Below, one piece after another: positions 7,869 to 44,241 of a stretch of 64,000 bases of DNA. Below the pieces are notes generated by a model that saw only the letters and a list, made by a program, of their open reading frames with translations, ran no database searches and was not told where the DNA came from. Origin of the DNA: Methanohalophilus mahii DSM 5219 (GTDB lineage: Archaea; Halobacteriota; Methanosarcinia; Methanosarcinales; Methanosarcinaceae); the NCBI RefSeq assembly GCF_000025865.1, contig NC_014002.1, forward strand, positions 682,001-746,000, read 5' to 3'. The translations under genes and the position numbers were made by a program. Positions within the stretch are counted from its first letter, which is position 1, and each line of letters opens with the position of its first letter.

Positions 7869-9374
7869 TTATTTAAGGGATTTAAGGAAATCATCTGCAT
7901 GTGTCATTATTTGCTTAAGTTCCTTTTTATTTATCCTGTCCAGGTTTTTTAAAATGAGTTTCATACGGCCTATGTCCCTAAGTTTTTCATTATTCTTGTG
8001 AAGAAATGCCCAATAAAGGTAATTAAAGGGACAGGCATCTTCACCGGTTCGATGGTTGTGGTTATAGGTGCAGTTCTGACAGTAATCACTCATTTTGTTG
8101 ATATAGTTTGCAGAAGAGATATAGGGTTTTGTAGCAAGGATCCCTCCGTCTGCAAATTGTCCCATTCCTATAACATTGGGTTGCATAACCCAGTCATATG
8201 CATCTATGAAAGCTGCATGAAACCAGTTCTTTACCTTTGCAGGATTTACTTCTGCAAGCAATGCAAAGTTGCTCAGTATCATAAGTCTCTGTATATGGTG
8301 TGCATACCCTGTGTTAAGTACCTCTTCAATGACGCTGGCCATACAGTTCATTGATGTTCTTTCGGGGTACCAGTAAATGTCGGGTAATTCCCTTTCATGA
8401 TCAAACCAGTTACTTTTTAGGTATTTATCCCCTGTGTATTTGTAAATGCAATGCATGTATTCGCGCCATCCAAGTATTTGCCGGATGAATCCTTCGATGC
8501 TGTTTAGGGGGAGATTTTTTTGGTAATAAGCCAGCTCGGCCTTTTTGATTACATTTAGGGGATGTAGAAGCCCGAGGTTCAGGTAGGGGGATAAAATCGA
8601 ATGCCAGAGCACATTGTCACCCGTAAGCATTATGTCCTGATAGGGTCCAAAATTTGAGAGTTTTTCTTCTATAAAGAAGTCGAGTGCTTTTTGCGCATCT
8701 TCATGTGTTACAGCTAAATTGAAATCTTTTCCTTTTCCGTATGTAGGATATTCGCTTCTTTCAACTTCTGCTATAATCTCTTTAGTGATCTTATCAGGTG
8801 AAAATTTTATATGTTGGGGTGGTTTTTTCTGAAATCCATTTTTAGGTGGAAGTTTGCGATTTTCTCGATCTAGATTCCATTTTCCTCCAGAGGGTTTGCC
8901 ATCTTTTTCAAGCAGGATTTCACTATTTTTGCGACCTGTTCTGTAAAAATCTTCCATGATGAGGTTTTTGCGTGAGCTGGCCCATGTGTTAAATTCCGGA
9001 ATACTCCATATGAATTGTTTATTATCCACGAATACGATTTTGCAATCTATATTGAGTTTCCCAAGATATTCTTTGAGGGTTATATTCGCAGGCTCTGCAA
9101 TATTAAGTTCATCTATTCCCTTCTTTTTTATCCATCTGGATAAGGATTTTTCCAGTTCTGCTGTCTTTATGTAGGTTATATCTGCTCCCCTATTCCGGAG
9201 TTTTTCGGCATAGTGGCGCATTGCAGACTATACAAGAATCAGCTTTTGTTTGTGGTATGGGCGTGCAAGAGCAAAGCCGGTATATTCTATCATTATGATA
9301 GGGGCATTTGATAGGTTTCTTATCATCGGATTTTGACTAAAAAGCTGGTCTCCTATGATCCATATGCCTTTCAT
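7869..9374 (-). CDS. FeS-BCP (PhrB/CryB-type) photolyase-family protein with in-frame TAG
   Basis: Read from ATG 9374, the protein begins MKGIWIIGDQLFSQNPMIRN, then RPYHKQKLILV, an in-frame TAG at 9230-9228 (codon 49), then SAMRHYAEKLRNRGADITY, and stays open to TAA. With TAG counted it is 501 codons, the usual size of iron-sulfur bacterial cryptochromes/photolyases. The four cluster cysteines fall at 344, 432, 435 and 448 (NCMAS, CQNC, DACPFNYLYW), each six less than in Agrobacterium PhrB. The N-terminal alpha/beta domain matches the family on both sides of the TAG, with no frameshift. Pyrrolysine insertion, or readthrough, is therefore more likely than decay. The family repairs (6-4) photoproducts using FAD. 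Without readthrough the first ATG would be 9221, losing 51 conserved residues. Confidence 0.85.
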
Positions 9375-13600: not shown

Positions 13601-15074
<1,474 letters not shown>

Positions 15075-41711: not shown

Positions 41712-42719
41712 TCATTGAGCTACTTTTCTCTTGAATTTTGCAACGTTGTCAAGCATTACTTCTATTCCGCGATTTATGATCGCTTCGAACTTCTCACCTC
41801 TCATAGCCGCACGATTGATGGATTCGTGAAGTTCTATTAATAGGACAACATCGATCCAGTTATCGCGTCTGCGGTAGATAAGGGTGTTTTCGAATAAGTC
41901 TGCTGTCATATCCAATGCTTTTTCTGCCGCATTTGTGTCCTTAAATTTGACTGGGATATGAAGTGTGACTGATGTGCTTTTTCCTTTTTCATCCTTTGGT
42001 ATATAAAGTCTTATGATCTCGTTTTTGAAACGTCCCAGGAAGTGGTCTGTTCCTTTTGTAAATCCAAGAGCAAGAATGGAATCCACCACTCTGGTTGGAA
42101 GATCATCCATGAGGCATCCACAGAGAGCTTTTGTGATGCTCTCTTCTTTGAGAGATTCTGTAAGCTCTATAAAGGAATCCAATGGGAATCCAAACACAAT
42201 TTCATCGTTTCTGTAATCACTGAACATGCGTGCTCCGCTACACAGAAGCGAGAGGTTCACAGTGTTTTCCATCACAGGAATGGCAGTACATTCGCCACAA
42301 ACTGCAAATTCTCCTTTGAATTTTGATTCTATCATGTTCCCTTTTACCTTAGCGAGGGTCGCTGCCAATAGCATGAGTTTACTGGCATTTCCAATAACTA
42401 CTACTGCATCCGGTTCAAATTCACATTTATCAAGTGGTGCCACGGTTATTTTATCTATATTTGCCGGCTTAATTCGGGGATATACCTCTCCATAACTCGG
42501 CTCTGTGAAACCAAGTGCCAGTTCTGCACTTGCACAGGAGATATCATCAATGGTAGCTGTGAATGTAGTGCCATATGCAGCACTTTTACGTACCATTTCA
42601 CAGTAACGCATTGGGGAGGTGATGTTTGCTGTCTCATCACTGTTAAGTTTAACAGCAATCGGTGTAAGCGGAAGTCTAAAAAAGTGTCTGAATCTTTTTG
42701 TCATTTCTGCATATGTCAT
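41712..42719 (-). CDS. DUF169 family protein (long form), SepCysS operon
   Basis: 335 residues. The N-terminus has the DUF169 opening FFRLPLTPIAVKLNSDETAN; then come MRYCEMVRKSAAYGTTFTAT, the CASAELALGF block, CGECTAIPV and CSGARMFSDYRNDEIVFGFP. Conserved cysteines stand at CEMV, SCASAE, CGEC and CGCL, several of them likely cluster or thiol ligands. Its ATG overlaps the SepCysS stop as ATGA, so it is translationally coupled to a sulfur-inserting enzyme. That suggests a role in sulfur or cofactor supply, but the family has no known function. Confidence 0.8.
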   Translation of the reverse strand: MTYAEMTKRFRHFFRLPLTPIAVKLNSDETANITSPMRYCEMVRKSAAYGTTFTATIDDISCASAELALGFTEPSYGEVYPRIKPANIDKITVAPLDKCEFEPDAVVVIGNASKLMLLAATLAKVKGNMIESKFKGEFAVCGECTAIPVMENTVNLSLLCSGARMFSDYRNDEIVFGFPLDSFIELTESLKEESITKALCGCLMDDLPTRVVDSILALGFTKGTDHFLGRFKNEIIRLYIPKDEKGKSTSVTLHIPVKFKDTNAAEKALDMTADLFENTLIYRRRDNWIDVVLLIELHESINRAAMRGEKFEAIINRGIEVMLDNVAKFKRKVAQ

Positions 42720-43909
42720 GTACTAGCCCCCACCTTGATACCATGTTCTCTGGCAATGTCTATGAAAGCATCTGCCACGTATTCAACCTGTTCCCTGCTA
42801 AGTCCGTAGGTATTCAACTTGAAATTCTTACTCATTCCAGGGTGCACTCCGGTAATTTTCCGTTTTTTAAGTTCATGGTAGAGGAAATATCCTCGCCTTT
42901 TTGTTGTGGCTGAAACTTCATAAAATGGGAATGTCTCAAAAGCCACCAGTGTATGCTCGGTTGGTTTTACACCCATCTGGTGGAACCCTTCTATTCGTTC
43001 AAGCTGGGAAGCAAGGTAACGGGCGTTTTCTACCTCTTCATTCCAGTGCTTGACACGTTTGACAACAGCAGGAAATGAAGCCATAAGTGACATCACCGGT
43101 GCCCCGAACACAGGTGAACATCCAAACAGTGCAACTTCTTTTTTCGTGAAACCCCGACCACTCCAGTCTCCACGGATAGTTGATTTTTCAAACACCTGCT
43201 GGCTCCACTCAAAAGTGGTCGCAAGAATTCCCATAGGAGCTGATGCTGCCCAGCTTTTGTGTCCTGAAGCGCACAGGAAATCTACACCAAGTTTCTTGCC
43301 ATCAATAGGCATGATGCCTGAGGAGTATGCCGTGTTCAACAGGAACGGAACTCCGTATTCTTTGCATATTTTTCCCACAGCTGCGGCATCAGCTACATTC
43401 CCATAACGATAATCCACATGGGTAAGCAGTGCCAGTGCAGGAAGAGAACCGGTCTTTCGTTCGACTTCTTCGAATTTTTCGGCATACATCTGTGGATCTA
43501 TGGTGAATTCGGGATAGCCGTTATGTGGTACTTCAACCACTTTTAACTGGTTTGCTTCTGCTGCCAGATAAGATGTATAATGGGCAAGGGAATCCAAAAC
43601 GATGGTGTCACCGGGTTCGGTCACCATATGCATAGCTGCCCATTTTGCGTGTCGGCAGCCGGCTGTGAACCTGACATCGTCCATATTAAGGAATTCTGCT
43701 ATATCTGCGGAAAGATTCCTGACCGGCGGTTTCTGAACCAGGTCAACCCTGGATTCGAAACAATAATCACATACCGAATAGCCGTCTGCAAATTCAAGTA
43801 CTGCTTTCCTGGCTTCAGCTGTAAGTACTCCGCCTCGCTGGATAGGATTCAGGTTTATGTATGTACTCTCAACTCCACGTTTCAGATTATTGTAAATATC
43901 CAGATTCAC
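42716..43909 (-). CDS. pscS: O-phosphoseryl-tRNA(Cys):Cys-tRNA synthase (SepCysS)
   Basis: 397 residues of a PLP fold-type I enzyme. RGGVLTAEARKAVLEFADGY and CDYCFESRVDLVQKPPVRNL open it, with the catalytic cysteine pair in CDYC and another in AGCRHAKWAAMH. The PLP lysine lies in ASGHKSWAASAPMG. It replaces the phosphate of Sep-tRNA(Cys) with sulfur to form Cys-tRNA(Cys), completing the route begun by SepRS at 29391-31010. A thioredoxin-like gene lies 38 bp upstream and DUF169 overlaps downstream, forming one operon. Confidence 0.96.
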   Translation of the reverse strand: MNLDIYNNLKRGVESTYINLNPIQRGGVLTAEARKAVLEFADGYSVCDYCFESRVDLVQKPPVRNLSADIAEFLNMDDVRFTAGCRHAKWAAMHMVTEPGDTIVLDSLAHYTSYLAAEANQLKVVEVPHNGYPEFTIDPQMYAEKFEEVERKTGSLPALALLTHVDYRYGNVADAAAVGKICKEYGVPFLLNTAYSSGIMPIDGKKLGVDFLCASGHKSWAASAPMGILATTFEWSQQVFEKSTIRGDWSGRGFTKKEVALFGCSPVFGAPVMSLMASFPAVVKRVKHWNEEVENARYLASQLERIEGFHQMGVKPTEHTLVAFETFPFYEVSATTKRRGYFLYHELKKRKITGVHPGMSKNFKLNTYGLSREQVEYVADAFIDIAREHGIKVGAST

Positions 43910-43947: not shown

Positions 43948-44202
43948 TTAGCCAGTTTGGTGCAGATTGATCTCATGTTCTATCTCCTCCTTTTCTACCC
44001 TTCCAATGAGTACAACCTCACCGTCAATGGCAATCGTCGGGACCTCCTCGATTCCCAGCTACTTTGCACGTTTTGCACCTTCGGGACCGGCAATATTGAT
44101 TTCCTTGAACATTATTCCACCTGAGAGGATGTCCACTATTTTCTTTCTGACATAATGACAATTCAAGCATGTATCGGAATAATATAGTTCTAACAACATC
44201 AT
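43948..44202 (-). CDS. thioredoxin/glutaredoxin-like protein with in-frame TAG
   Basis: Frame MMLLELYYSDTCLNCHYVRK with a CxxC redox site, then INIAGPEGAKRAK, a TAG (44061-44059), then LGIEEVPTIAIDGEVVLIGR and KEEIEHEI to TAA. Both halves are one thioredoxin fold in the same frame: the second holds the cis-proline VPT and the central strand. TAG stands where relatives have the last residue of the helix before the 'LGI-xVPT' strand. The frame is open up to ATG 44220; a TATA box at 44218-44227 predicts transcription starting near the ATGs at 44202/44199, so a leaderless start there is preferred. It could reduce SepCysS or feed it sulfur. Pyrrolysine insertion is the best explanation of the TAG. 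Confidence 0.8.
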
Positions 44203-44241
44203 ATCACAATTGGTTGGCATATAAATAACAAATTGTATCTC

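Follow-up and report, generated by a model that had tools for sequence, protein, structure and literature searches.

The methylamine methyltransferases MtmB, MtbB and MttB are encoded with an in-frame TAG in genomes that also encode the pyrrolysine (Pyl) machinery; the codon is conserved and the residue is catalytic (PMC2933860). Thg1, the tRNA-His guanylyltransferase of the Pyl-encoding methanogen Methanosarcina acetivorans, bears one in-frame amber codon that is private to the species and absent from its relatives, and which is regarded as neutrally acquired (Heinemann 2009, cited in PMC2933860). Similarly, the citrate synthase of Methanohalophilus mahii (Mmah_0479) has a single private in-frame TAG, for which the authors of the genome proposed pyrrolysine (PMC3017947). 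Here, we describe another interrupted gene of M. mahii SLP, located within a stretch of 64,000 nucleotides (the window, positions 682001-746000 of the single 2,012,424-base contig of the genome). It encodes a small protein of the Thioredoxin_3 family, referred to as Trx, and heads an operon with a gene for SepCysS. Our analysis suggests that its TAG is probably a neutral glutamine-to-pyrrolysine acquisition, the UAG being translated as pyrrolysine.

43948..44202, minus strand: Thioredoxin_3-family gene (Trx) with one TAG inside, CxxC motif (DTCLNC), cis-proline (VPT) and TAA as stop codon
44059..44061, minus strand: in-frame TAG, proposed pyrrolysine codon; CAG (glutamine) in the two closest orthologues

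At 44059-44061 the plus-strand letters CTA give an in-frame TAG on the minus strand, flanked by ...GAKRAK and LGIEEVPTIAIDGEVVLIG...; with the TAG residue written as O, the protein continues as O-LGIEEVPTIAIDGEVVLIGR. Conserved Trx sequence runs in frame on either side of the codon, and the Pfam match to Thioredoxin_3 (PF13192) crosses it (residues 10-77, E-value 4.6e-6, 27.0 bits versus a curated cut-off of 24.8 bits, with invariant C10, C13 and P53). In addition, an uninterrupted orthologue with 98% identity exists in Methanohalophilus sp. RSK, and an AlphaFold2 model built from 13 orthologues confidently adopts a thioredoxin fold (predicted local distance difference test, pLDDT, 89.9). The frame across the TAG is thus not a product of chance, which bears out the preliminary description of a thioredoxin frame interrupted by this codon only. 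The 90 codons given there are obtained by counting from the first ATG, at 44220 (44220-43948, minus strand, TAG as sense), which is a further possible start; the double ATG at 44202/44199 appears likelier, as the resulting protein of about 84 codons fits the orthologue start MTLIELYY... In the model, the TAG residue is number 46 and the final residue of helix 2, in sequence 33 residues past the second CxxC cysteine and 7 ahead of the cis-proline. Since strands 3 and 4, helix 3 and the cis-proline loop are all encoded past the TAG and would be omitted upon termination, the fragment ending there is predicted to be unlikely to work as a thioredoxin. By sequence, the best solved relative of Trx is the thioredoxin 1fo5, and the fold, the CxxC motif and the cis-proline are shared with the MJ0307-family/Thioredoxin_3 small archaeal thioredoxins. 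Trx differs from the MJ0307 family in scoring below its equivalog cut-off (TIGR00411, 33.7 versus 92.75 bits) and forms its own group tied to SepCysS.

At the position of the TAG, the closest orthologue, that of Methanohalophilus sp. RSK, and the next closest one have CAG, nine genomes of the genus including Methanococcoides have CAA, and two more members of the family have GAG, glutamine thus occupying the site in 11 of the 13 closest orthologues. In distant homologues the codon is GAG, GAA, CAT or CGA, the residues read at the site in relatives being Gln, Glu, His or Arg. None of 20 other Trx orthologues contains a stop, which holds also for three distant homologues in which the site residue was not read. 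No TAG at this site was found in any other genome, even when 393 genomes of the phylum were searched with a profile. The codon comparison proposed in the preliminary description therefore returned sense codons exclusively, and a conserved Pyl site in Trx was rejected. Judged from these alignments, the TAG is private to M. mahii and recent, and arose from CAG by a single C-to-T transition; the position is polar and variable. In being confined to one lineage, it resembles the amber codons of Thg1 and of Mmah_0479, the latter being an unrelated enzyme with Glu or Phe at the site in relatives; as in Thg1-like cases, relatives have a sense codon that differs from the TAG by a single base. It differs from the TAG of MtmB, MtbB and MttB, which is conserved across orthologues. 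Downstream of the TAG, M. mahii and its nearest relative show 2 synonymous changes, 0 nonsynonymous ones and no further lesion, two changes being too few to inform on selection in this half of the gene. As a separate observation, about 13 residues of one orthologue (L019, genome G019) are duplicated in tandem without loss of frame.

The genome encodes the pyrrolysine genes on which the earlier proposal depended: tRNA-Pyl(cta), pylS, pylB, pylC and pylD lie in one cluster (a complete pylTSBCD set, with pylB, pylC and pylD named by position and recognisable sequence), and MtmB, MtbB and MttB are present as well. The use of TAG, TAA and TGA was assessed in 864 kb, corresponding to 43% of the genome. 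TAG ends only 8 of 498 long open reading frames (at least 200 codons; less than 2%), interrupted genes among them, and still serves as a terminator, for example where pylB apparently ends, as it does in other species (PMC2933860). The same sequence was scanned for stops with coding sequence on both flanks, followed by a Pfam check, which recovered mtmB, mtbB and mttB as positive controls. Among ordinary genes, i.e. those not encoding methylamine methyltransferases, seven were interrupted by TAG (Trx, a photolyase-related gene, YyaL/DsbH, an MFS (major facilitator superfamily) transporter, KsgA, an NcsA-like PP-loop gene and a histidine kinase), one by TAA and none by TGA. Mutation alone would make TAG account for 0.32-0.39 (32-39%) of nonsense changes, giving a binomial P of 0.002-0.008 for seven of eight and, with Trx excluded, of 0.006-0.017 for six of seven. 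At the six TAG sites that were traced, relatives have CAG (Trx, YyaL, KsgA, NcsA-like) or TGG (MFS, photolyase-related). For the remaining interrupted genes, the changes specific to the branch fit purifying selection, but also cover the time before the TAG arose. Archaea in which all TAG codons are decoded as pyrrolysine have reportedly been described in 2025, which is not used as evidence here.

Read-through is further suggested by a sister genus. Codon 102 of the canonical SepCysS gene is TAG in three Methanococcoides genomes (L071, L072 and L073, i.e. G026, G020 and G018) and CAG in three others. Over the 282 codons past the TAG, 30 synonymous but just 2 nonsynonymous changes separate two of the TAG-bearing genes (omega 0.017). 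The third compared with these two gives an omega of 0.10-0.11, indicating that this part is under strong purifying selection. As a gene truncated at codon 102 would not be expected to evolve in this manner, the TAG is very probably translated, and the canonical SepCysS of these species probably contains pyrrolysine; by extension, read-through may be assumed for the TAG codons of M. mahii. With pylTSBCD complete, TAG interruptions exceeding those by TAA and TGA, and read-through in the sister genus, insertion of pyrrolysine into Trx is likely. In this respect the preliminary description of a Pyl-containing thioredoxin stands, while a dedicated function of the residue is unsupported. A recent CAG-to-TAG transition hit the conserved first gene of the operon in M. 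mahii and, with Pyl-tRNA(CUA) present and TAG rare as a stop, ribosomes probably decode the UAG as pyrrolysine, with termination as a competing outcome. The products would be full-length Trx in which Pyl replaces the Gln that closes helix 2, a replacement that is probably roughly neutral, and a certain amount of a fragment of about 48 residues without function. The insertion yield might be partial; in M. acetivorans a foreign amber codon was decoded as Pyl at 20-30% (PMC2933860). The Trx codon would then be a clean example of UAG as a near-sense codon in Pyl-encoding Methanosarcinaceae.

The genes following Trx are both intact:

42716..43909, minus strand: second-type SepCysS that shares about 50% identity with the genome's canonical copy and retains the cysteines of GYSxCxxC and of the later LxGC
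41712..42719, minus strand: the operon's third gene, encoding a DUF169 (COG2043) protein

The Trx stop and SepCysS are 38 nucleotides apart, SepCysS and DUF169 overlap by 4 nucleotides, and the gene order is kept in eight of eight named loci, one of them from an Archaeoglobi genome, so that Trx is, as had been described, the first gene of a SepCysS-DUF169 operon. Of 112 family genomes, 14 encode Trx, and precisely these 14 have the close SepCysS type (at least 85% identical), the remaining listed SepCysS copies of the family being about 42-51% identical. Outside the family, SepCysS adjoins Trx in five of seven further homologues and is not found within 1.5 kb in two. Genes of sulfate assimilation, among them those for adenosine 5'-phosphosulfate (APS) reductase and siroheme sulfite reductase, adjoin the locus in several, though not all, relatives. 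As gene order and co-occurrence hold while these neighbours vary, SepCysS is the most constant partner of Trx. Of the suggestion that Trx serves tRNA-dependent cysteine synthesis, the link to SepCysS is therefore well supported by gene order, and the redox or sulfur role might be as follows. SepCysS is thought to form Cys-tRNA via a persulfide (PMC5424206), which makes a reducing or sulfur-relaying Trx plausible; Trx probably reduces, or hands sulfur to, the adjacent SepCysS by disulfide or persulfide chemistry, or does so for the sulfate-assimilation neighbours. The conserved Trx-SepCysS-DUF169 set, which suggests a testable thioredoxin partner for the second SepCysS type, is the more interesting biology compared to the TAG.

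The main rival to pyrrolysine acquisition is a recent loss of function, in which an ordinary nonsense mutation has reduced Trx to a dead fragment of about 48 residues, its role being covered by other thioredoxins. Several points weigh in its favor and against translation of the codon. Five of eight Methanohalophilus genomes are without both Trx and its SepCysS, indicating that the pair is dispensable, and a second thioredoxin is encoded elsewhere in the genome (G000:1226878-1227096). Recent nonsense mutations do occur in M. mahii, as a short flavodoxin gene bears a single clean TAA that is apparently a fresh one. The citrate synthase, TAG-interrupted in M. mahii, has decayed in several relatives: within the genus Methanohalophilus (L064-L070), two relatives have it intact, four yield partial matches, and in one more it was not found. 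The counts of interrupting stops are small and rest on a coding-potential scan of less than half of the genome, and the Trx mutation is too young for the downstream sequence alone to prove selection. With a dispensable operon and a young TAG, a nonsense mutation thus retains a low probability. However, TAA should then be about equally common, whereas the interruption is a TAG in Trx as in seven of the eight interrupted genes; moreover, the genome encodes Pyl-tRNA, Trx is free of further lesions, and both SepCysS and DUF169 are undamaged. Pyrrolysine acquisition hence remains the favored explanation.

A dedicated function of pyrrolysine in Trx, or a UAG switch coupling Trx to the supply of pyrrolysine (methylamine), as had been envisaged initially, is very improbable. 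Growth on methylamines and methanol (PMC3017947) could let the Pyl supply vary, and Trx heads a cysteine operon next to sulfate-assimilation genes. Conservation or a special context would be predicted, and neither was found: no examined orthologue has the TAG, the site is variable, and similar private TAG codons occur in unrelated genes of M. mahii. A PYLIS (pyrrolysine insertion sequence)-like element was also rejected, as the fold of 120 nucleotides around and after the TAG is ordinary (z -1.37). It is equally improbable that Trx-SepCysS-DUF169 constitutes a dedicated undescribed redox or sulfur module for tRNA-dependent cysteine synthesis in which the Trx level of M. mahii is set by Pyl via UAG. 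Finally, a sequencing or culture artefact, with CAG in the real population, would require only a one-base change in the single assembly of the species, but is highly unlikely given a finished single-contig genome and several other genes dominated by TAG, a pattern random errors would not yield.

If UAG is a near-sense codon in Pyl-encoding Methanosarcinaceae, gene finders can therefore miss or split real genes in these species, KsgA and citrate synthase of M. mahii included. Besides Trx, the scan identified the following interrupted genes:

Window 7869-9374, minus strand: photolyase-related (DPRP) gene, single in-frame TAG at 9228-9230; TGG (Trp) in two relatives
L105:7879-8694, minus strand: KsgA, one TAG; CAG in close relatives
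L104:8881-9849, plus strand: NcsA-like PP-loop gene, one TAG; CAG in close relatives
L042:9934-11952, plus strand: YyaL/DsbH gene, TAG; CAG/CAA in relatives
L046:11158-12300, minus strand: MFS transporter gene, TAG; TGG in relatives
L103:380-3529, minus strand: multi-PAS histidine kinase, in-frame TAG near the N-terminus
L099:2103-2540, plus strand: short flavodoxin gene, single clean TAA

The calls for KsgA and the NcsA-like gene were settled by uninterrupted relatives, and that for the histidine kinase, in which only a marginal GAF match spans the stop, is the weakest of the TAG calls. Apart from these genes, a 119-residue open reading frame with an 85-codon extension past a TAG occurs in three copies (window 14710-15069, minus strand; L042:2148-2507; L055:5699-6058) and is probably a shadow reading frame on a repeated element.
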